The translations under genes and the position numbers were made by a program. DNA of 33,257 bases from a virus, in the IMG/VR virus record IMGVR_UViG_3300036398_002960, positions 1 to 33,257 of that record. One strand, given 5' to 3'. Below the pieces are notes generated by a model that was not told where the DNA came from, ran no database searches, and saw only the letters and a program-made list of their open reading frames with translations. Every line of letters begins with the position of its first letter. Position 1 is the stretch's first letter. Of the stretch, positions 10,348-27,809 are shown piece by piece.

Positions 10348-10354
10348 TCGGTGG

Positions 10355-10360
10355 TAGACT
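10355..10360 (+). promoter_or_regulatory. -10 element TAGACT for the ribonucleotide reductase gene
   Basis: TAGACT lies just after the terminator T-tract. Transcription would start near 10367 and give a 26-nt leader with GAGGGA before ATG 10393. No good -35 was found; that position falls within the terminator hairpin. Confidence 0.45.
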
Positions 10361-10392
10361 CAAAAGTCCCACCTGAATCCAGAGGGACCCCC

Positions 10393-13347
10393 ATGTCGTT
10401 CGATCCTCGTCAAGACCTCGCCAATTTCGTCTTCCTCAAGAACTACGCCCGATTCCGACCGGATCTTCAGCGCAGGGAGACGTGGAATGAAGCCTCAAAG
10501 CGCGTAATGGACATGCACCGTACCAAGTACGGAGTGTCTTTGGCCGACACCGTCTACGATGAGGTCGAGGCAGCACTCAAGAACAAGTTGATTCTGCCTT
10601 CGATGCGGTCGTTCCAATTCGGAGGTGATGCCATTCTGCGTAAGAATATGCGCATTTTCAACTGCTTTACCGCCGAGCAGACCTTCGTTGCGCGGGGCGG
10701 CGTCCGCAGTTTCAACGACTGTTCTGATGGAGACGTTGTCGAGGTGTTGACGCACACAGGAGCGTGGCGTCGTGCTGTGGTCCGCAACTACGGCCAACGA
10801 GAGGTCAACAAGATCACCATCACACGCGGACGTAACCGACACACGGTAGTCGCAACCAGCAACCACCGTTGGCTGCTCTCTAACGGCACTGAAACCACGA
10901 CGCTCAACGTCGGTGATTCCCTGTTGTCTGCCCCCTCCTTCTTCACTGAATTCGCTTTCGACGACGCACCTGTCGACGAGCAGGTGGCGTGGGCTTATGG
11001 CATGGTGTATGGCGACGGTACACGGGTAAAAGACAACCAGCGGGTGGCGTGGGCTTATGGCATGGTGTATGGCGACGGTACACGGGTAAAAGACAACCAG
11101 CGTATTCGTGGATCTATGATCCGTCTTTGCGGCAACGATAAGCGTTTCGTTGACCGTTTCCTTTCGTTGGGCTTTAGTGCCTCTTGGCCGAAGTCATGTG
11201 GCGGCGATCCTATCGTCTACACGGGTTCCTATCAAAAGACACCCATCAGCCTCGACGAAGAACCACGCCTGATCCGCGCCTTTGTGCGGGGATATCTGGA
11301 TGCCGATGGGGCCAAGCGCCCCTCTGGAGAGGAACGCAACCCCTTCCAGTCTATTCAAGTCACCGGTAAAGAGCAGATTGCTTGGGCACGTCGCGCTCTA
11401 CCTCTGGCCGGTGTCTACATTATAAGCGAAGACTCACCCCCTATGGAGACCAACTTCGGCCCCCGTAGCGACGACACCGTGCGGTTCATTATCAGCACTT
11501 ACCCGTCAGGGGCCACCAAGGCTCGGTTCTTGGTCAGCAACATTGAACCGGCAGGAACGGCACAGACGTGGTGTCTTGAAGTTGAGGAGGACGCCTCTTT
11601 TGTCCTCCCCTTTGGGGTGGCGACGGGCAACTGTAGTTACTCATTTTTCGATCGCCCTCGTTTCCTCGCCGAAGCCGTGTGGTTGTTGCTGTGCGGTACA
11701 GGCGTCGGTTTCTCGGTGCAGAAGCATCACGTCGCGAAGTTGCCTCAAATCTCTCCGCCCGGGGCTCGGGTCAACACCCACTACGTCGAAGACTCCATCG
11801 AGGGTTGGGCTGATGCCTTCAAGGTGCTTTTTGAGTCCTACTTCGGGTACGAGGCCACCCAAGGCATTGATTGTGGCATCCGGTTCGACTACTCTCGGGT
11901 CCGACCCGAGGGGGCTCCGCTCTCATCATCGTCGGCAAAGGCTCCCGGTCCCAAGCCGTTGCGCGATTCGCTTGAAGCCGTTCGTCAATTGCTGGATCGC
12001 GTCGTTGCTAATGGCGGAGTGATCCGCCCCATCGACGCATACGACATGGTGATGCATTCGGCCATGTGTGTTCGTGCCGGAGGGGTGCGACGTTCGGCGA
12101 CGATTGCGTTGTTCTCCCCTGACGACGAAGATATGATGCTTGCCAAGACGGGCAACTGGTTTGCTGACAACCCGCAGCGGCGTCTCAGCAACAATTCGGC
12201 CCTGTTGGTTCGGGCTACGGCTTCCGAGGACGAGTTCTTCCGGCTTCTGGATGCGACTCAGAACTTCGGTGAGCCCGGATTCTTCTTCTCCAATTCGACC
12301 GAACACGGGACTAATCCCTGCGCGGAGATTGGACTCGCCCCCGTCGACGAACGCACTGGTGAGACAGGTTGGGCAATGTGCAACCTGACTTCGGTCAACG
12401 TGGCTGCGTGTCCCGATACGGAGACGTTTTACCACGCTTGCAATATGGCGTCGGTGCTGGGCACGTTGCAGGCTGGATACACCAACCCGGACTACCTTGG
12501 CGAGACGTCCCGGTATATCCTTGAACGGGATTCTTTGCTCGGGGTTTCATTGACCGGCATGGCAGACAATCCCGCTATCGCGTTCAACGAGACGTGCTTG
12601 GCTTTCGGGGCAAAGCTGGTCGGCACGACCAATCGAGCCATCTCCGCAGCCATTGGCATTCGTCACGCGGCGCGACTGACCACGGTGAAGCCCGAAGGCA
12701 CAGGGTCGTTGGCTCTCGGTGTCGGTAACGGCGTCCACCCGCATCATTCACGCCGCTACCTGCGCCACGTTGAGGGAGGTAAATTGACTGACCCATTGGT
12801 GGCGTTTATGGCAAAGTATTGTCCTGAAGCGGTGGTGCCCTCGGCCTATTCACAGGGTGAATACAAACTCGTGTTCCCCATCGACCTCGGTGAAGCGCCG
12901 CAGTGGTACAAGGCAGAAACCTCGGCACTCGACCACCTCGCCAAGGTCAAGCTGGTGTACGAGGCTTGGGTCAAGCCCGGAACCGACCGAGGCGACCTGA
13001 CACACAACGTCAGCAACACAATCGTCGTTCGCCCTGCCGAATGGAAAGCCGTGGGCGACTTCGTCTGGGCAAATCGGCAGTCGTTCGGTGGTGTTGCCAT
13101 GCTCGGGTCATCCGGCGATCTGGATTATCCACAGGCTCCGTTCGTAGAGGTGTTGTCCGAGGAAGAAATTCGTCTCAAGTATCCTGACGACGTCATTCGC
13201 GCCACGAAGGCTTTGCTGGTGCTGGAACAATACCGGCAACTTCGATTGAAGTGGACGGCTCTGCCTTGGGGCGACCTGCGGGAGGACACAGACGCTGCGG
13301 GCGGCGTCGAAGTCGTGGCCTGCGCGGGCGGGGCCTGTTCGTTCTAA
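10393..13347 (+). CDS. nrdJ: Class II (B12-dependent) ribonucleotide reductase containing an intein
   Basis: A 984-residue precursor; removing the intein (residues 91-413) leaves about 661 residues, a normal size for the monomeric adenosylcobalamin-dependent reductase. Family marks are LPSMRSFQFGG before the intein, then NCSYSFF, GTGVGFSVQKHH, SNNSALLV, the active-site NPCAEIGLAP, and a C-terminal Cys pair in VVACAGGACSF used for reduction. It converts ribonucleotides to deoxyribonucleotides for phage replication and does not need oxygen. The intein sits immediately before the Cys of NCSYSFF, probably a redox-active cysteine, the kind of conserved site inteins favour. ATG 10393 follows GAGGGA; the frame is open further upstream but runs into the promoter. 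Confidence 0.9.
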   Translation: MSFDPRQDLANFVFLKNYARFRPDLQRRETWNEASKRVMDMHRTKYGVSLADTVYDEVEAALKNKLILPSMRSFQFGGDAILRKNMRIFNCFTAEQTFVARGGVRSFNDCSDGDVVEVLTHTGAWRRAVVRNYGQREVNKITITRGRNRHTVVATSNHRWLLSNGTETTTLNVGDSLLSAPSFFTEFAFDDAPVDEQVAWAYGMVYGDGTRVKDNQRVAWAYGMVYGDGTRVKDNQRIRGSMIRLCGNDKRFVDRFLSLGFSASWPKSCGGDPIVYTGSYQKTPISLDEEPRLIRAFVRGYLDADGAKRPSGEERNPFQSIQVTGKEQIAWARRALPLAGVYIISEDSPPMETNFGPRSDDTVRFIISTYPSGATKARFLVSNIEPAGTAQTWCLEVEEDASFVLPFGVATGNCSYSFFDRPRFLAEAVWLLLCGTGVGFSVQKHHVAKLPQISPPGARVNTHYVEDSIEGWADAFKVLFESYFGYEATQGIDCGIRFDYSRVRPEGAPLSSSSAKAPGPKPLRDSLEAVRQLLDRVVANGGVIRPIDAYDMVMHSAMCVRAGGVRRSATIALFSPDDEDMMLAKTGNWFADNPQRRLSNNSALLVRATASEDEFFRLLDATQNFGEPGFFFSNSTEHGTNPCAEIGLAPVDERTGETGWAMCNLTSVNVAACPDTETFYHACNMASVLGTLQAGYTNPDYLGETSRYILERDSLLGVSLTGMADNPAIAFNETCLAFGAKLVGTTNRAISAAIGIRHAARLTTVKPEGTGSLALGVGNGVHPHHSRRYLRHVEGGKLTDPLVAFMAKYCPEAVVPSAYSQGEYKLVFPIDLGEAPQWYKAETSALDHLAKVKLVYEAWVKPGTDRGDLTHNVSNTIVVRPAEWKAVGDFVWANRQSFGGVAMLGSSGDLDYPQAPFVEVLSEEEIRLKYPDDVIRATKALLVLEQYRQLRLKWTALPWGDLREDTDAAGGVEVVACAGGACSF
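10663..11631 (+). other. Intein with LAGLIDADG endonuclease region
   Basis: The 323-residue insert begins with Cys (CFTAEQTFVARGGVRSFNDC) and ends VATGN before the extein Cys at 11632. Splicing blocks are visible: block A at the start, block B as VVATSNHRWLL (TxxH), block F as WCLEVEEDASFVLPFG and block G as TGN followed by C. The penultimate residue is Gly instead of the usual His. The endonuclease region has motifs AYGMVYGDGTRV and FVRGYLDADGAKRP. The first of these is duplicated by an exact 60-bp repeat. Confidence 0.9.
10983..11102 (+). repeat. Exact 60-bp tandem duplication inside the intein endonuclease
   Basis: Bases 10983-11042 are repeated without a mismatch at 11043-11102. The unit encodes 20 residues (VAWAYGMVYGDGTRVKDNQR) and contains the first LAGLIDADG-type motif, so the protein carries that motif twice in a row followed by the second motif. 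The frame is kept. Confidence 0.97.
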
Positions 13348-16285: not shown

Positions 16286-16314
16286 TTGACCTTTTCGACG
16301 GTCCGCGATAGCGT
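16286..16314 (+). promoter_or_regulatory. Leaderless promoter of the amidoligase cassette (TTGACC, 17 nt, TAGCGT)
   Basis: TTGACC at 16286-16291 and TAGCGT at 16309-16314 have an ideal 17-nt spacer; the ATG at 16321 begins exactly 6 nt after the -10. Confidence 0.7.
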
Positions 16315-16320
16315 GGCGAC

Positions 16321-16737
16321 ATGAACCGCACCACCACCCTCGCAATTGTCTCCGCCCCCGCTCTCACCCTCGCAATCGTCGCCGTATCGATGTCACCCGT
16401 CCTTATGACGGCAATGGTCCTCGCCATCGGCATCGTCATCGCGTGGGATGTCGAAGGGCCGGACCTTTCCTACCTCGACCGTCCCGCCCCCGTGAAGGTT
16501 GTGATCGGCCGTCCCATCCGTCGCCCCCTGCCGATCCGGTTCCTGCCCCCCGTCGACGCCGATACCACCCTCACCGCTACCACCGTCAATGTCCGGATCG
16601 CCACGGTTGAAGACGAGATGACCCGGCTACTTGCGTGTTATCACCGTGCCGTGGCGTCCCGTCATCGTGCCCGCGCCGCCACCTACGCCGCACGGATCGG
16701 CGCGTTGCAGTCCGCCGCCGCTAACGCCGGCAATTGA
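16321..16737 (+). CDS. Small membrane protein heading the amidoligase cassette
   Basis: A 138-residue protein. Two hydrophobic segments follow each other (LAIVSAPALTLAIVAVSM, about 7-24, and VLMTAMVLAIGIVIAW, about 27-42), then a Pro-rich basic stretch (KVVIGRPIRRPLPIRFLPP) and a C-terminal helix with many Arg and Ala. It probably forms a membrane hairpin with a cytoplasmic tail. There is no ribosome site; the start is the leaderless ATG after the -10 at 16309. It is the first gene of a unit that continues with the amidoligase 51 bases downstream, so it may hold that enzyme or its substrate at the membrane. No family is recognised. Confidence 0.65.
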   Translation: MNRTTTLAIVSAPALTLAIVAVSMSPVLMTAMVLAIGIVIAWDVEGPDLSYLDRPAPVKVVIGRPIRRPLPIRFLPPVDADTTLTATTVNVRIATVEDEMTRLLACYHRAVASRHRARAATYAARIGALQSAAANAGN

Positions 16738-16740
16738 CCC

Positions 16741-16776
16741 CCACACCACACCACACCACACCACACCACACCACAC
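16741..16776 (+). repeat. (CCACA)7 microsatellite in the amidoligase leader
   Basis: Seven exact CCACA units lie between the membrane-protein stop and the ribosome site (CGGAG) of the amidoligase. A five-base unit of this kind can change copy number by slippage, and would alter spacing here but not a reading frame. Confidence 0.9.
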
Positions 16777-16788
16777 GGAGCCTAAGCC

Positions 16789-18498
16789 ATGACCGACACC
16801 ATCGCCGAAACGCCCGCCACCGAGACACCCGCCACCGAGACACCCGCCACCGAGACACCCGCCACCGATACCGCCCCCCGTGTAAACCGGAAGATCTGCC
16901 GTCGTGAGGGTTGCGGCATGGAGTGTGACAAGCGTTATTATGTCCACACGTCCGCCGACGTGCGGGGCTTGTGGTGCGGGGCTTGTGCGCGGAATCATGC
17001 CACAACCGTCGGGACGGAACGGTGGGCGACGGCGGCACTGATTGTGGATTGCCGTGGCCGGAAGCGGACCCCCGCACAAGTGGCGCAATGGGCGACGTGT
17101 GAAGATTGCGGCAAGCCCGGCGACCACGATTTTCTCGGTGTCTACGTCGATGCAGATGACGTCATGCGGACTGTATGCACGGCGTGTGTCGGGGAATCCG
17201 ATGAAGGGCACACCCGCCGACTCCGGTCGGACTACACGGACGACGCCCGGATCATCCGATGGGGCGATGATCGCAATCCCTCGGTTCGCCGGGTGACGAC
17301 GTCGCGCTACGGCGACACGGAATGGCAATGGACGTGCGAGCATCACGCGGCGTGTCCGGGTTGTGCTCTGATGGTCGACCGACGCCACGTGTCTTTGACG
17401 CCGGTTGATCTCCTCGCCAGCGAGGTTCCGGGGCCGCGACAGATCCGTGTATGCCGGACATGCGCGGAACACGCGAGACACGACGGCGATACGGTGTCCG
17501 GGTATCACCATACAACGGCGGTGCACCCCGTGCGTCAGGTGGACGGTGCCTTGACTCGCGACGATACAATCGGACCCGACGCGATCACGGTGCGCGGAGA
17601 CCGGGGCTATGCCGGGCGCGTCGTGACGGTGCCCGCTACCTACCCCGCCCACCGTAGGACCCGACGCGCACCGTTGCTCTTTGGTCTGGAGGTGGAATTG
17701 GCGTCGGTCGGTGAGACAACGCCCGGACAAATTGCACGATATTGCCGCGAAACGTGGGGTGTGCTCCACGCCGAGAGCAAGGCCGATTCTTCCATCCAAT
17801 CGCCACACGGTTGCGGCGGTGTCGAGGTAGTGTCTCACCCTGCCACAATCGGTGCCTTCAGGAGCGTCTTCCACAATTGGAAGGCTCCGGCCGGTGCGGA
17901 AGCGAACACATCATGCGGTATGCACGTCCATGTGTCCCGCGATGCACTTTCACCGGGGCAGGTAGACCGTATTTGTTATCTCTTGTCTCGACGTGGGGAT
18001 CAATCCACATGGGCTACTGTGTTCCGTCGCGACCCTAACAATTATTGCAAGGCTTATACGCCCGGTAGCTTCGCCCGTCGCCGTTGGCGCGACGAGACCG
18101 ACCGGTATCGTGTGATCAACATCACACCCCGGGCGACCATCGAATTGCGGTGGCCAGCGTCGACGGTCCGGGGGGATACTATCCTCGCCACGGTAGAACT
18201 GTTCCATGCTGTGTGCCTTTACACGCAAGCCGGCTTTCCCGGTGGGAGCCACCGTAGTGAAGCGTTGTGCTGGACGGCTTTTTCCAAATGGATTCAGTCC
18301 GATCCGCTTGCCCGGTCTGAAACCCGCGCCGCACGGCGGTATCTCGCGGCCCGGGGCTTGATCAACGCCCGGAAGGACCCCCGCGCTACCGCTAGCGTCG
18401 TCGACGACGGCACCGACGCGACGCTACAACCGGAAATGGTCGCGGCTGCCGTCACCTCACCCGCATGGACCCGGATTCAGGCCGCGCTGGCCGCCTGA
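16789..18498 (+). CDS. Zinc-finger amidoligase (Amidoligase_2-like)
   Basis: A 569-residue protein in three parts. Residues 1-30 are a low-complexity tail of PATET repeats. Residues 37-235 are Cys/His-rich with several zinc-binding knuckles (CRREGCGMEC, CGAC, CEDCGK, CTAC, CPGC, CRTC). From about 296 comes a region with marks of the phage/bacterial amidoligase family related to glutamine synthetase-type ligases: LLFGLEVELAS, then ESKADSSIQ, then GGVEVVSHPA, then NTSCGMHVHVSRDALS, then INITPRATIELRWPAST. Such enzymes are predicted to join a carboxyl to an amine using ATP. The class II amidotransferase 33 bases downstream supports a peptide or amide modification pathway. ATG 16789 follows GGAG. 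The target is unknown. Confidence 0.75.
   Translation: MTDTIAETPATETPATETPATETPATDTAPRVNRKICRREGCGMECDKRYYVHTSADVRGLWCGACARNHATTVGTERWATAALIVDCRGRKRTPAQVAQWATCEDCGKPGDHDFLGVYVDADDVMRTVCTACVGESDEGHTRRLRSDYTDDARIIRWGDDRNPSVRRVTTSRYGDTEWQWTCEHHAACPGCALMVDRRHVSLTPVDLLASEVPGPRQIRVCRTCAEHARHDGDTVSGYHHTTAVHPVRQVDGALTRDDTIGPDAITVRGDRGYAGRVVTVPATYPAHRRTRRAPLLFGLEVELASVGETTPGQIARYCRETWGVLHAESKADSSIQSPHGCGGVEVVSHPATIGAFRSVFHNWKAPAGAEANTSCGMHVHVSRDALSPGQVDRICYLLSRRGDQSTWATVFRRDPNNYCKAYTPGSFARRRWRDETDRYRVINITPRATIELRWPASTVRGDTILATVELFHAVCLYTQAGFPGGSHRSEALCWTAFSKWIQSDPLARSETRAARRYLAARGLINARKDPRATASVVDDGTDATLQPEMVAAAVTSPAWTRIQAALAA
16816..16869 (+). repeat. 15-bp tandem repeat encoding PATET
   Basis: GCCACCGAGACACCC is repeated three times exactly plus a diverged fourth copy, in frame, giving ATETP units in the N-terminal tail of the amidoligase. 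Confidence 0.9.
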
Positions 18499-18531
18499 TC
18501 ACCCACCCGTACACTGAATAGGAGCCTAATC

Positions 18532-19596
18532 ATGTGTCTCATTATCAAGCAGACCGCAGCAAGCCCGCTCACCCGTGAGGAAACCGACGCAATCTATCGA
18601 CGCAACAAAGACGGCTTTGGAGTCGCGTGGCATGACGACGAAGGAACCGTACAGTATTGGCGACGTGTCCCGGTTGACGCCGATGATGCGTGGATGCTGT
18701 ATCAGTCGGCGCTGGCGCTGGCGACGTCGGAAAGACCCGTCGTGCTCCACTGGCGCATGGCCACCCATGGCCACATCGTCGACGATCTGGCCCATCCTTT
18801 CGGGCTGCCCGGGGCGGTGTTGGTCCACAACGGTGTACTACCGTACTGGGGATCCGTCGCCGCGCCGGGGCAGTCCGACACGGCGGCACTGGCCGCCGCT
18901 ATCGCCGCTATCGTCACCCGCGCCGCCGATGACGGCCTAAGCCCCGATGCCGTTTACGGATCGGACACGTTCAGGGCGTGGCTGTCGAAGGAGTCGCAGG
19001 GTAGCGCGATCCTAATCGTCCGAAAGGACGGCGTGATCGACCACTACGGCAACACTGGCCTAGTCCATGACGGCCGATGGATGTCCAATACCTACGCCGG
19101 ACCGTCGTCGATTTACCCCCCGCGTCCGGCAGTGTCGCCGACGACGTGGGCAACGTGGCGCGGGTGGGATGCGTGGGATGACCGGACACCGACACCGACG
19201 CCGACGACGGTGACCCGCGCCGCGTCCGTTGGAATGGTCGTCACAAAAGCCGCACGGAAGCGGGCCGCGTTGCGGCGGGTCCGGGCGACCCCGTCATCGG
19301 TCGACCCCCGGGCGTTGATTGCGGGAGGGCTGTACCTACCCCCCATGTCGATCCGTGCCGCTGCGGAAGCCCTCGCGGCGGTAGCGCCGGCCGGGTCCGG
19401 TTGGTTTCTTCTTGACGAAGACATTGACGTGGTGAGGTGGGGGATCGAACAATTCGCGGAGACCTTGACGCCCCATGCCGGGTTCGCCGTCCGGGTGGTT
19501 GACCTCACAAGCGACCGGGTCCTAATCCGGGTGGTCGATATGTCCGACGCGTCGGAACGTCGTCGGGGTCGAGATGACCCCCCCGGATGGTGCTAG
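18532..19596 (+). CDS. Class II glutamine amidotransferase-like Ntn hydrolase
   Basis: A 354-residue protein. It starts MCLIIKQ, placing the nucleophilic Cys at position 2 after removal of Met, as in class II (Ntn-type) amidotransferases. Further family marks are GFGVAWHDDEG near residue 24, VLHWRMATHG near 66, and VLVHNGVLPYWG near 91, with a later SAILIVRKDG. The domain would hydrolyse the amide of glutamine, or a gamma-glutamyl bond, and pass ammonia to a ligase or trim a conjugate. The last 130 residues are not part of the domain and are unknown. The ATG follows ATAGGAGCC, the same leader type as the amidoligase gene. Confidence 0.8.
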   Translation: MCLIIKQTAASPLTREETDAIYRRNKDGFGVAWHDDEGTVQYWRRVPVDADDAWMLYQSALALATSERPVVLHWRMATHGHIVDDLAHPFGLPGAVLVHNGVLPYWGSVAAPGQSDTAALAAAIAAIVTRAADDGLSPDAVYGSDTFRAWLSKESQGSAILIVRKDGVIDHYGNTGLVHDGRWMSNTYAGPSSIYPPRPAVSPTTWATWRGWDAWDDRTPTPTPTTVTRAASVGMVVTKAARKRAALRRVRATPSSVDPRALIAGGLYLPPMSIRAAAEALAAVAPAGSGWFLLDEDIDVVRWGIEQFAETLTPHAGFAVRVVDLTSDRVLIRVVDMSDASERRRGRDDPPGWC

Positions 19597-19627
19597 GCGC
19601 TAGGCGCTAGCCCGACCCGACCCGACC

Positions 19628-19659
19628 CGACCCCGGACTAGATCCGGGGTCGTTTTTTT
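19628..19659 (+). terminator. Rho-independent terminator of the amidoligase cassette
   Basis: A 10-bp perfect stem (19628-19637 with 19643-19652) around CTAGA is followed by seven T. It is preceded by CTAGGCG repeats (19593-19610) that overlap the stop codon and by four CCCGA units (19611-19630). Confidence 0.85.
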
Positions 19660-19997: not shown

Positions 19998-20026
19998 TTG
20001 ACGCCATCGGATCCGGCGGATAGACT
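19998..20026 (+). promoter_or_regulatory. Leaderless promoter (TTGACG, 17 nt, TAGACT)
   Basis: TTGACG at 19998-20003 and TAGACT at 20021-20026 have a 17-nt spacer. The ATG at 20033 follows the -10 by exactly 6 nt (CATCAC), and there is no ribosome site. Confidence 0.75.
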
Positions 20027-20032
20027 CATCAC

Positions 20033-20245
20033 ATGAACGACACGATCTGCCTTGACGCCGCTACCCTCCTCACGATGTCTCGTGAGGACCTCTTCGCCGC
20101 GATGGGTCGGTCTGACCTTCTGACGGTCGACGACGCCGTTGCGGCGACGGTTGCATCTCGCCGACGCGGGACCGCTAGCGGCGTCGCCGTCGACACGTCG
20201 CCTTGCATCGTGCTGATCTCCGCCGAGCATAACCCCCTCGCCTGA
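20033..20245 (+). CDS. Small hypothetical protein, leaderless
   Basis: A 70-residue protein, MNDTICLDAATLLTMSREDL and onward, ending IVLISAEHNPLA. It is acidic and helical in the first half and carries a short Arg-rich segment SRRRGTASG. I do not recognise a family. It forms a complete one-gene unit with its own promoter and terminator. Its stop codon lies within the first copy of a 13-bp tandem repeat. Confidence 0.55.
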   Translation: MNDTICLDAATLLTMSREDLFAAMGRSDLLTVDDAVAATVASRRRGTASGVAVDTSPCIVLISAEHNPLA

Positions 20246-24177: not shown

Positions 24178-25146
24178 TCAGATGACCAATGAAAACCAAC
24201 CCAACAAGGTTGCCGTGGCATCCCGCCAAGACGGGACGTGAGACGCCGTGACGTCCGCCATCACGGCCTCACCGGACAAGACCGCAAGCAACCCAGCTTC
24301 AAAAGACCGGTTGGTGAACCGGTAGCCGTGCCGGACCGTTTGCGCCAACCCACCGGACGGGACGACGATCGGCGTACAACCCGCTGCCTGAGCCTCTACA
24401 GCCGCCAATGAGAAGAGTTCGTAGCCGTGGCCGGGGTGAACCCAGAAATCCGATTCCCACAGCAACTGGCGCAGTTTACGGTCGTCTGTCTTGGCAGAAT
24501 CTCCGTAGGTCGTTGTAACCAACCGATAACCGGTTTTTGCTTCGATGGCTTGCTCTCGCCACAGATTCTTGAGGTAGTCGAGACCGCGATCCGGACTGGA
24601 CGAGAACACGACCTGTCGTCGCCGTTCCGGAAGAGTCTTCACCTTGTCTGCGTTCGGGATGGCTGTTGGAACGGCATAGAAGCCGTGGTCGATGCCGTGC
24701 GGGACGATTCGTGGGTTGAGGTAACCCGGCATCAGCTTCCGAGCCGCTGCCGAAATAACGACGAGGTCGTCGTAGGCGACATCAAGAGATTCAATCCATT
24801 CACGATATGTCTCGGGATGGTCGAAGTAGAAGTTGGTCCAGATGCGGATTGTCCCGCCGCGATAGGAAGCGATATCGATCGTGGATCGCGGATTCATCAA
24901 CCACACTTCGTCGGCATCCGGACAGGACGTGTCGTGTTCTCGACGATTGCGGAACGTCACCCCATTGCGGACGGTTGTGGGACCGTCGTAGACGACGACG
25001 ACATTTCGTCCAGTCCGGACGGTTTCTTCAGCAGTCCGGACGTAGAAGCGATCAGTCCCTCGGACCGGACATGTCGGATCCCATCGAAAGTTGGGCGGGA
25101 GTTCTTCCGTAACGAAGTAGGTCGTGGCCTTGTCGGTCGTTTTCAT
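24178..25146 (-). CDS. Glycosyltransferase, GT4-like (GT-B fold)
   Basis: A 322-residue protein from ATG 25146, which overlaps the stop of a 31-residue peptide gene. The N-terminal half has strands and loops of a GT-B domain (NVVVVYDGPTT, DEVWLMNPRS, DLVVISAAARKLM). The C-terminal half has the nucleotide-sugar region VVFSSSPDRGLDYL and then DFWVHPGHGYELFSLAAVEAQAAGCTPIVVPSGG in two blocks, with an intact E-x7-E motif (ELFSLAAVE). It should transfer a sugar from a nucleotide sugar to a phage protein, host surface molecule or modified base. It is the last gene of the operon. The longer frame to 25269 overlaps two upstream genes and is rejected. Confidence 0.8.
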   Translation of the reverse strand: MKTTDKATTYFVTEELPPNFRWDPTCPVRGTDRFYVRTAEETVRTGRNVVVVYDGPTTVRNGVTFRNRREHDTSCPDADEVWLMNPRSTIDIASYRGGTIRIWTNFYFDHPETYREWIESLDVAYDDLVVISAAARKLMPGYLNPRIVPHGIDHGFYAVPTAIPNADKVKTLPERRRQVVFSSSPDRGLDYLKNLWREQAIEAKTGYRLVTTTYGDSAKTDDRKLRQLLWESDFWVHPGHGYELFSLAAVEAQAAGCTPIVVPSGGLAQTVRHGYRFTNRSFEAGLLAVLSGEAVMADVTASHVPSWRDATATLLGWFSLVI

Positions 25147-25238
25147 GATAGGAACCACCTGATGATGCGGGTTGAGATGGGTTGGGTCAGGACTACGACG
25201 TAGAAGACGAAGCAGCCCGCTATGACACGGAGCGTCAT
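25143..25238 (-). CDS. 31-residue membrane peptide
   Basis: This tiny gene sits between two larger ones with four-base overlaps at both ends: its ATG (25238) overlaps the previous stop and its TGA (25145-25143) overlaps the glycosyltransferase ATG. The peptide has a single hydrophobic helix (MTLRVIAGCFVFYVVVLTQP) and a basic tail (RIIRW). Because the junctions are exact, translation through it is likely, either as a functional membrane peptide or as a coupling device. No family is recognised. Confidence 0.55.
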   Translation of the reverse strand: MTLRVIAGCFVFYVVVLTQPISTRIIRWFLS

Positions 25239-25450
25239 ACGCTATCCGCTGGATAAGCAGCCGAAACAAAAACCTGTGCTGTTTGTGTCGGATCTGGGCG
25301 AATCACCGTCGTAACAATGGTCCGGTCTTCTGCCTGATCGATACGGACAATGTCGGCACGATAACGTGCGATAAATTCGTGATACTGACGAACAGTACCG
25401 GCGTGAAACACGTGTGTCGAGAAGACTTCGTCCGGGTACTTGGTAGGCAT
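25235..25450 (-). CDS. Hypothetical protein
   Basis: A 71-residue protein, MPTKYPDEVFSTHVFHAGTV and onward, with alternating strands (ADIVRIDQAEDRTIVTTVIR). ATG 25450 has GGAG nine bases upstream. It is read from a promoter at 25477-25505 that lies beyond the terminator of the upstream glycosyltransferase gene, so it starts a sub-operon that includes the membrane peptide and the GT4 enzyme. Not recognised. Confidence 0.6.
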   Translation of the reverse strand: MPTKYPDEVFSTHVFHAGTVRQYHEFIARYRADIVRIDQAEDRTIVTTVIRPDPTQTAQVFVSAAYPADSV

Positions 25451-25476
25451 CGGTTCGCTCCTATCGGGTTGAAAAG

Positions 25477-25505
25477 ACCGTAATCACGATCACCCTGAAA
25501 GTAAA
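25477..25505 (-). promoter_or_regulatory. Leftward promoter adjoining a terminator (TTTACT, 17 nt, TACGGT)
   Basis: On the minus strand TTTACT is at 25505-25500 and TACGGT at 25482-25477. The -35 is made of the T-rich tail of the terminator hairpin. Transcription would begin near 25470 with a short leader containing AGGAG. Confidence 0.5.
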
Positions 25506-25526
25506 GCGGCCCCTTTCGGGGCCGCT
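25505..25526 (-). terminator. Terminator after the large glycosyltransferase gene
   Basis: A perfect 9-bp GC-rich stem (25505-25513 with 25518-25526) with a four-base loop lies 12 bases beyond the stop. On the minus strand it is followed by TTACTTTCA, a broken T-tract. Confidence 0.65.
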
Positions 25527-25538
25527 CGGAGATCCACA

Positions 25539-27809
25539 TCACTCCGTCTTCGGTGGCGACTTGACCGTCCACAGAGCCCCAAACTGCTCCGCGACGACGT
25601 TCCAGTCGAAGCGGCTTACGGCCTTGTAGGCAAGTTCGACGCGATGACTGGTTGGCATCGGCTTCTGAATGGCACTGATAACCGCCGCCGCGTAGTCTTC
25701 CGCCTTCGGGATGAAGGTCGCGTCAGGAGCCACTTCAGGCAGCGCCCCATTCGGAGCCGTGATGACGTGGCATCCTGCCGCAGTAGCCTTCACAGCCGAG
25801 ATGCAGAACGTCTCGACGTCGGTGTTGTCGTAATGGGAGTAGGCCCACACGTTCGCATCTGTCATGGCTTCGTACAAAGCCGCATGGCCGACACCACCAT
25901 GATGCAGCACGTCAAGGTGACGAACTGCCTCATAATGAGACATCACGTCAGCGTAGACCTCGGGCTGTGCTCGCTGCAACATCGACCAATCGTAGTAGAT
26001 GTCGAGATAGGCTTCCGGGCAGGCTTCCTTGATCTTGGGCCAAGCCCGAAGCAGATGCCGCAATCCCCGTGACGGACACGAGGTGTAGATGATTTTATTC
26101 GGATCCTTGGGCTGATTCGCCAGTCCGACAAAATCCGCCTTTCGGATGCCATTGGCCAACTTGACGAACTTGACCTGATGCTCGGCAGGCAAGCCCCGCT
26201 CGATGCACTTGCGGTGATGGTCGGACAGCACCACGACGCTGGACACACCCTTCATGATGGCGTTGGCCAACTTCGGGTCCGCCACACCAACGGACATGTC
26301 GTGCAACCAGAACGACGACGTACCGATGCCAGCCGGCGCGAAAGCAGTCTCGTCGCCTTCTCGCTTGGCCTTGAGCCGACCGATCTGGGTCTCCAACAGG
26401 TGCTTGACGAGCCCGGTCGCTCGCCAGACCACCAACGTGCCGTGCTCGTCATCCACGTCGAACGTCTTGAAATCGCGCCATTCGACCCCGTGCTGGTCAA
26501 GACCACCGATCGACGTTGGCGGCAAAACACCATACACACGGACGTTACGCCCCTGTCGTGCAAGAGCCTGAGTCAGGTACACCACCGCTTCTTCGGATCC
26601 ACCGAGCATCGTGCCGGTAGACGACGCATCGAAAGGCTGCGGCGTGTTCGGCACCAGAATCGTAATCCGGTCAATGTGCTTGCGAATGGACATCGAAGCA
26701 TCAGCGACAGCCGGGTGAGTCCGCAGGTCACCCCGGACGGAATTCATGACCTTCTCAAGACCAGCAGCCGGGTAGTTCAGATGGGCGGCGGCGTCAGCGA
26801 CGCACATCGGAGCGAAGACCTTCTCAAACAGGAAGCCTTCATGGGTCGTCTGTTGGCCAGCGACCGAGGACTTGGTTCCCGCCTCAATACAACGGACCCA
26901 ATTACCCATCGCGTGATATACGATGGCCTCATAGGCAGGCCCCGCCAATTTGGCAAACCCCAAGGCCGACTGGAGGTTATCCGCAGATGCCTCAAGACGA
27001 GACAAGTCGGCATAAGCCTGACGTCCTTCAGGCAGATTTGGGTAGGTGTCACCTACTTCGCGCAGGTAAGGACGAGCCTCGTCGAGTTTGCCATCCAGCT
27101 TGAGTTCCATAGCAATGGTTCGCGCCAGACGAGCCCTATAGGCGAGATCCTCCGTTGTGGCGTAGTCGCGGCGAGCAATCGCGGCATTTCGCCGCAAGGC
27201 CCTGTCCTTCGACGCCTCATCCTTACGCTTGTGCCGCACATGCAGGGTCTCAGAGTTTTCAATCTGAGCAAGCGCCTGCGGGGGCAACGGCTTGCTGGAG
27301 ATGAGCCTCTCATGGATAGCGTCGGCCCAAGACCAATGAGAGCCCCACCGCACAAGGCGAAAGGTCGGAAGTTCCTCAAGCACATCGTAGTCGTAAGGGA
27401 CGAAAAGACCCTCAACGTGGGGGTGATTGCGCTCAGTCTTCTCGATCAGGGCGCGGAGGTTTTCTCCGTGAATTAGCACGTCATCCGTATCGAGGAAGAA
27501 GCGCCACTTACCGGACGCGGCACGGAAGTTGGCGTTGCGAGCCTTCGCGAAGTCGTCGCACCACTCGAAATCGGTCATGACGAAGGACTTGCCCCGTTCG
27601 CGGACAAGATCCCCGAACGATTCAAGAATCTTTCGAGTCTCGTCCGTACACCCGGTGTCCGTGAAGACGAACTCGTCGAAGTGGTCAACGACGGACTCCA
27701 ACAGTGGCCGGATGGTGGCTTCGTTATCGCGGAAGATTACGCACAACGACAGGAACGGCTGCTGGACTCGGGTGATATTCGGCAACTTGATTGGTCGGAT
27801 CGGTTTCAC
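25539..27809 (-). CDS. Two-domain glycosyltransferase: GT2 - TPR-like helices - GT4
   Basis: A 756-residue fusion starting at GTG 27809 behind AAGGAG. Residues 18-200 are a GT2 (GT-A) domain: SLCVIFRDNEATI, VFTDTGCTDET, FAKARNANFRAASGKWRFFL followed by the metal-binding DTDD (107-110), and later HERL. Residues of about 200-380 are helical repeats resembling TPRs (LARTIAMELKLDGKLDEARP and others). The C-terminal part is a GT4 (GT-B) domain with MLGGSEEAVVYLTQAL, IIYTSCPSRGLRHLLRAW, HHGGVGHAALYEAM and TFCISAVKATAAGCHVI. In the last block the usual second Glu of E-x7-E is Lys, so this domain may be altered. The enzyme could add two different sugars in sequence. Confidence 0.88.
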   Translation of the reverse strand: MKPIRPIKLPNITRVQQPFLSLCVIFRDNEATIRPLLESVVDHFDEFVFTDTGCTDETRKILESFGDLVRERGKSFVMTDFEWCDDFAKARNANFRAASGKWRFFLDTDDVLIHGENLRALIEKTERNHPHVEGLFVPYDYDVLEELPTFRLVRWGSHWSWADAIHERLISSKPLPPQALAQIENSETLHVRHKRKDEASKDRALRRNAAIARRDYATTEDLAYRARLARTIAMELKLDGKLDEARPYLREVGDTYPNLPEGRQAYADLSRLEASADNLQSALGFAKLAGPAYEAIVYHAMGNWVRCIEAGTKSSVAGQQTTHEGFLFEKVFAPMCVADAAAHLNYPAAGLEKVMNSVRGDLRTHPAVADASMSIRKHIDRITILVPNTPQPFDASSTGTMLGGSEEAVVYLTQALARQGRNVRVYGVLPPTSIGGLDQHGVEWRDFKTFDVDDEHGTLVVWRATGLVKHLLETQIGRLKAKREGDETAFAPAGIGTSSFWLHDMSVGVADPKLANAIMKGVSSVVVLSDHHRKCIERGLPAEHQVKFVKLANGIRKADFVGLANQPKDPNKIIYTSCPSRGLRHLLRAWPKIKEACPEAYLDIYYDWSMLQRAQPEVYADVMSHYEAVRHLDVLHHGGVGHAALYEAMTDANVWAYSHYDNTDVETFCISAVKATAAGCHVITAPNGALPEVAPDATFIPKAEDYAAAVISAIQKPMPTSHRVELAYKAVSRFDWNVVAEQFGALWTVKSPPKTE

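Follow-up and report, generated by a model that had tools for sequence, protein, structure and literature searches.

A phage transcription unit that pairs a predicted zinc-ribbon amidoligase with a class II amidotransferase-like protein

In phages of the phiEco32, PaP3 and LUZ24 type, an Amidoligase_2 gene stands immediately before a gene for a class II glutamine amidotransferase (GATase), which is also the arrangement of genes 2 and 3 in the three-gene phage unit described here. The phiEco32/PaP3 cassette is longer and also encodes a COOH-NH2 ligase, an ATP-grasp ligase and a gamma-glutamyl cyclotransferase, whereas the present unit has a zinc-ribbon ligase and no cyclotransferase was found in it; the phiEco32/PaP3 amidoligase lacks the zinc block of CxxC motifs and shows no more than a remote relationship to gene 2 (17–31 bits). 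The phiEco32-type set has been called a “peptidoglycan modification cassette” and is thought, as a prediction, to prevent superinfection (PMC5498523), and the idea of cell-wall modification has been repeated, again as a prediction, for marine phages (PMC10580990). As relayed by later papers, the cell-wall or peptide modification reading goes back to Iyer et al. 2009 (via PMC5498523, PMC10580990, PMC3890496). No biochemical test of such cassette enzymes was found in the literature, in which the Marvin paper and Iyer et al. 2009 were represented through the papers citing them. A preliminary description of the locus knew of no characterised phage pathway with this exact set, but the amidoligase–GATase pair and the cell-wall hypothesis are already in the literature (PMC5498523, PMC10580990, PMC3890496), and the pair, as a prediction already made, is not new.

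The same pair, a zinc-ribbon amidoligase with a class II GATase directly behind it, is present as gp105–gp106 in the Mycobacterium phage Marvin and in 16 further Marvin-like phages. Like gene 2, gp105 has a Cys-rich N-terminus and GS-type motifs, and like gene 3, gp106 begins with Met-Cys; the two form their own short forward unit, with no cyclotransferase or ATP-grasp gene annotated alongside. The Marvin pair differs in its sequence (about 30% identity), in a shorter Cys-rich region and in the gene upstream, gp104, which encodes a different protein of 140 aa. Homologues of gp105 are mislabelled “glutamine amidotransferase” in many GenBank records and are actually amidoligases.

Two bacterial systems offer further comparisons. 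In the ergothioneine pathway, EgtA, a gamma-glutamyl ligase, belongs to the same kind as glutamate-cysteine ligase, and EgtC is an Ntn hydrolase; the likeness lies in the combination of a ligase with an EgtC-type hydrolase, which gene 3 resembles in fold and sequence, whereas no other ergothioneine genes were seen, gene 3 falls far under the EgtC cut-off and gene 2 has a zinc block. MurT has the Mur-ligase fold and GatD is a class I amidotransferase, and together they provide a two-gene, glutamine-dependent carboxyl amidation of peptidoglycan; this comparison concerns only how the system works, since the folds of genes 2 and 3 differ.

The window analysed here is a virus record of 33,257 bases that carries phage genes for DNA polymerase, ribonucleotide reductase, thymidylate synthase, terminase and portal. 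No close relative of its right 23 kb was found among named phages, and the terminase matches all lie under 60% identity and are scattered across many hosts. Positions 16286–19659, on the plus strand, form a single transcription unit with a promoter-like site, three genes and a strong terminator, as the preliminary description had proposed; direct reading confirmed the coordinates and found every element in place. The promoter-like site, TTGACC-N17-TAGCGT (16286–16314), was recognised by direct reading and pattern search; it consists of TTGACC at 16286–16291, a 17-nt spacer and TAGCGT at 16309–16314, and ends 6 nt ahead of the gene 1 ATG at 16321, a leaderless geometry. Identical geometry recurs at 19998–20035 ahead of another ATG, and the pattern search, which included ATG or GTG, returned two sites against 0.33 expected. 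Gene 1 (ORF1, 16321–16737) encodes a membrane protein of 138 aa according to its reading frame and hydropathy. A GGAG ribosome-binding site (16777–16780) lies 8 nt ahead of the ATG of gene 2 (ORF2, 16789–18498), the amidoligase of 569 aa, and another (18521–18524) lies 7 nt ahead of the ATG of gene 3 (ORF3, 18532–19596), the class II GATase-like protein, an apparent Ntn hydrolase of 354 aa. The unit closes with an intrinsic terminator, read from the sequence (19628–19659), whose 10-bp stem and 5-nt loop (stem 19628–19652) are followed by T7. Third-position G+C in the cassette codons is 69–77%, similar to the polymerase and terminase genes, and a PADLOC search of the cassette gave no match and so no defence-system membership.

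Gene 2 consists of a Thr/Ala/Pro-rich stretch (residues 1–30), a Cys-rich zinc-ribbon region (about 31–290) and a GS-fold ligase domain (about 293–530). The protein matches Pfam Amidoligase_2 (PF12224) at E=1.7e-8 and 35.1 bits, exceeding the curated cut-off of 22, and so do 52 of its 53 relatives match that family. Most of the ligase domain is modelled with confidence (pLDDT mostly 85–95), and residues 293–528 match YbdK (Z 11.5), GS (Z about 10.5), PafA/Dop (Z 8.6) and also plant glutamate-cysteine ligase, which places the large protein within the GS superfamily rather than outside the amidoligase fold. Across 53 sequences of the family there is little or no variation at E301, E303, D333, E346, G377–H379, R414, N444, E452 and R454 (none at E301, E303, E346, H379, R414, N444, E452 and R454), and these sequences retain the ExE, GxHVHxS and ExR motifs, an invariance that is partly by construction in that the GxHVHxS and GxExVxxP residues belonged to the search patterns. 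These positions correspond to metal- and ATP-binding residues of the GS superfamily. When the amidoligase profile was run against the sequences of solved structures, the matches, none better than E 0.02, were all to unrelated proteins, zinc-finger and similar ones. By family, motifs and modelled fold, gene 2 is a GS-superfamily amidoligase with a predicted ligase activity, and the amidoligase identity given in the preliminary description is borne out by the profile match and the predicted structure alike.

Ahead of the ligase domain lie five CxxC motifs, which make up the N-terminal zinc-finger block noticed earlier. The pairs C104/C107 and C130/C133 are retained in 96–100% of sequences and the remaining ones in about half. 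The fold of this region is poorly predicted, and the Cys pairs are putative zinc ligands; the ribbon could bind nucleic acid rather than peptide.

The amidotransferase-like domain of gene 3 spans residues 2–200, and the C-terminal 150 residues are poorly predicted. Its own match to Pfam GATase_4 (E=0.003, 17 bits) is under the cut-off of 23; 41 of 45 relatives match that family at E<=0.01, and the profile built from the gene 3 family picks up the GlmS glutaminase domain at 7e-11. The model has an Ntn-hydrolase glutaminase fold, with GlmS at Z 13.2 and EgtC at Z 12.7. Conserved across the family are the glutamine-pocket residues Cys2 (directly after Met), R75, N100–G101 and D116, of which Cys2 was required during sequence selection and the others were not. 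Gene 3 is thus assigned as class-II-amidotransferase-like from its modelled fold and active-site residues rather than from the GATase_4 profile, and it is through the GlmS/EgtC fold and the GlmS hit of the family profile that the earlier class II identification holds.

The reading with the best support, that the two enzymes are probably an ATP-dependent amide-forming pair, can be envisioned as follows. Gene 2, as an ATP-dependent carboxylate-amine ligase, would phosphorylate a carboxyl group, and an amine would displace the phosphate; the N-terminal cysteine of gene 3 would hydrolyse glutamine and pass the ammonia to gene 2, so that the two would jointly amidate an acidic group on a substrate held by the zinc-ribbon N-terminus. 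The advantage for the phage would most likely lie in altering a molecule of the infected host, be it an envelope peptide or a protein. We consider the chances of such an ATP-dependent, two-enzyme amide-forming module, with ammonia donated by gene 3, to be evenly balanced. The donation of ammonia in particular is not secured, for in the model gene 3 is as close to EgtC, a gamma-glutamyl amide hydrolase, as it is to GlmS, and since GlmS and EgtC share their glutamine-binding residues, fold and sequence cannot separate ammonia donation from a scheme like that of EgtA and EgtC. Under that scheme an amine would receive a gamma-glutamyl group through gene 2, and the gamma-glutamyl amide would later be hydrolysed by gene 3, which would be no ammonia donor. 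The top fold match of gene 2, YbdK, is a relative of gamma-glutamyl-cysteine ligase, EgtC is the top NCBIfam match of gene 3 (E=5e-6, 26 bits, the equivalog cut-off of 218.65 not being reached), and other phage amidoligases are accompanied by gamma-glutamyl cyclotransferase, another enzyme that cleaves gamma-glutamyl groups (PMC11253131, PMC11318856, PMC3485107). However, the scores of gene 3 against GlmS and EgtC are tied and the glutamine-binding residues are identical in both. The surroundings of related genes point the same way: a neighbourhood survey for a conserved third partner found none beyond lineage-specific genes, hence no conserved enzyme that would act between tagging and trimming, and gamma-glutamyl cyclotransferase (PF06094) is absent from the window and from 50 related records, many of which are fragments. 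We regard tagging and later trimming as possible but rather doubtful. In the same 50 records the COOH-NH2 ligase (PF14395) gave no match, in a search that does detect the PaP3 copy used as a positive control.

The presence of PafA and Dop among the fold matches of gene 2 raises another prospect, that gene 2 joins an amino acid or peptide to a host or phage protein, as a peptide ligase or a pupylation-like isopeptide enzyme, and gene 3 is the hydrolase that reverses it. Gene 3 as an Ntn hydrolase and a zinc ribbon that could bind protein would both suit such a role, but YbdK and GS outrank PafA/Dop as matches, and we regard this proposal as unlikely.

How far the pair extends beyond this phage was examined by profile scans. 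A single-sequence scan of viral contigs and a two-sequence scan of genome contigs returned nothing, and broader alignments were needed; scans based on alignments of three members yielded 155 viral loci, and once the window and four named phage records were added, 119 distinct amidoligases remained. An amidotransferase gene lies on the same strand beside the amidoligase, nearly always directly downstream, in 117 of these 119 distinct viral loci, a fraction that is no census in that the loci are the best-scoring ones and the queries were derived from such pairs. At least two CxxC motifs precede the ligase domain in 113 of the 117. Of the two unpaired loci, one belongs to a Clostridioides phage and the other lies on a contig that breaks off within the amidoligase gene; when loci were fetched using the amidoligase alone, 79 of 80 have the amidotransferase, the sole exception being a contig ending inside the amidoligase. 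The pair is also present in 74 of 79 bacterial loci, mainly from gut Clostridia. Among the bacterial loci, resolvase genes occur in 24 and DUF3846 genes in 15, neighbours that suggest mobile elements, and integrase genes also adjoin the module. The pair is genuine and is widespread in phages and mobile elements. A change of the envelope against superinfection is accordingly not the sole reading, given that in gut bacteria the module also has resolvase and integrase genes as neighbours.

That the enzymes are functionally unrelated and simply happen to adjoin within an accessory region might be entertained because several other genes of the region vary between phages. The co-occurrence in other phages on which the preliminary description staked its proposal, and which holds for the enzyme pair in the viral and bacterial loci alike, is kept across phage lineages with differing neighbours and makes a chance association highly improbable. 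One locus (L245) appeared to contain an amidoligase–GATase fusion, which was rejected in that the joining stretch is frameshift-like and a Cys inside the chain could not serve as the N-terminal nucleophile. The pair thus occurs in many unrelated phages as well as in mobile elements of gut bacteria, and its minimal two-gene form makes the reaction directly testable with two purified proteins, and the cultured Marvin-like phages on Mycobacterium smegmatis are a ready laboratory system.

Gene 1 stands apart from this conservation. Its N-terminal 40 or so residues are hydrophobic, corresponding to one or two membrane helices (peak hydropathy 2.26 in a 19-residue window), and its C-terminal part is basic. 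It has no match in Pfam, NCBIfam or PADLOC and a weak match to phrog_29730 (E=3e-4) that covers the hydrophobic part. Among the loci surveyed, a homologue was found solely in the sister phage, L006, where the alignment score of 115 compares with a shuffled mean of 34.5 (sd 5.5). A hydrophobic ORF adjoins the amidoligase in 10 of 105 loci; among other long ORFs the figure is 5 of 241. The gene was considered as a general third partner of the module and rejected on these two grounds, the single homologue and the 10 of 105. Of the three-gene set put forward in the preliminary description, then, the enzyme pair is near-constant in the neighbourhoods surveyed, while gene 1 is homologous in the sister phage only. 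The probable role of gene 1 is that of a helper, or else a passenger, peculiar to this lineage, in which it may anchor the enzymes at the membrane.

The sister phage also gives a measure of how quickly the cassette changes. Its 63.6-kb record, G001, runs collinear with the window and keeps all three cassette genes in the same order, followed by a hairpin and T-run after gene 3. Identity to G001 is 27% for gene 1, 42% for gene 2 and 39% for gene 3, as against 68–91% for most core genes and 86–91% for the polymerase, terminase, portal and RNase E-like genes; the cassette values are three of the lowest between the two collinear phages, in a region where several other genes also vary. The kept gene order, the true homology of gene 1 and the low identities together indicate a cassette that is old in the lineage and whose divergence, or replacement, has been much faster than that of the core. 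Within gene 2 the zinc region is 37% identical to that of the sister phage and the catalytic domain 58%, and the N-terminus is less conserved than the ligase domain in all 309 of the 309 pairs compared. The near-invariant zinc CxxC pairs, the fast-evolving N-terminal region and the divergence of the cassette are what the present analysis adds to the published predictions.

From these sequence comparisons we infer that the N-terminus of gene 2 sets specificity, and the fast divergence is consistent with a cassette that faces the host, although it could stem from recombinational replacement and not from selection. The preliminary description had suggested that the membrane partner, too, may help to specify the target. 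A broader and frankly tentative picture is that a widespread module acts on one conserved type of target in the host and modifies it, that its zinc region diversifies in an arms race, and that in this phage a dedicated membrane protein anchors it. The start of the unit has changed between the two phages as well: in L006 the corresponding place is taken by a TTGACG site, but there gene 1 is preceded by a leader with a GGAG site, and the leaderless start is specific to the present phage.

The ribonucleotide reductase gene of the window (10351-13347) is interrupted, when the protein of the collinear sister phage G001 is taken as the reference in a sequence comparison, by approximately 324 extra residues encoded at 10666-11637. 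Because this insert begins with a Cys, ends in ...VATGN directly before a further Cys, and contains the LAGLIDADG-like stretches YGMVYGDG and RGYLDADG, its sequence looks like that of an intein; a Pfam search returned no intein match to it. The insert also carries a 20-residue tandem duplication.

Between the amidoligase cassette and the terminase, at 24178-27809 on the minus strand, lie two genes whose products, of 363 and 756 aa, are glycosyltransferase-like. At 19998-20035 there is a second promoter-like site, TTGAC-N17-TANNNT, which lies 6 nt before an ATG, the same spacing as in the cassette promoter, a hint that this phage may commonly start its genes without a leader.

Among the surveyed loci, a clade comprising L036, L045, L063, L064 and L074 encodes a single-helix membrane protein of 47-52 aa (DLLAVMIALV...) just upstream of the amidoligase, its ORF in most cases stopping 3 nt before the first amidoligase ATG. 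This protein does not look homologous to the membrane protein encoded by gene 1 of the cassette.

In gut Clostridia, the amidoligase-amidotransferase pair is adjoined by DUF3846 and resolvase genes (L201, 6668-7066; L217, 7716-8327), and the bacterial copies may thus be carried by integrative elements. On an Atopobiaceae contig, the two enzymes share one frame (L245, 4284-6530), an arrangement that probably reflects a frameshift rather than a true fusion.
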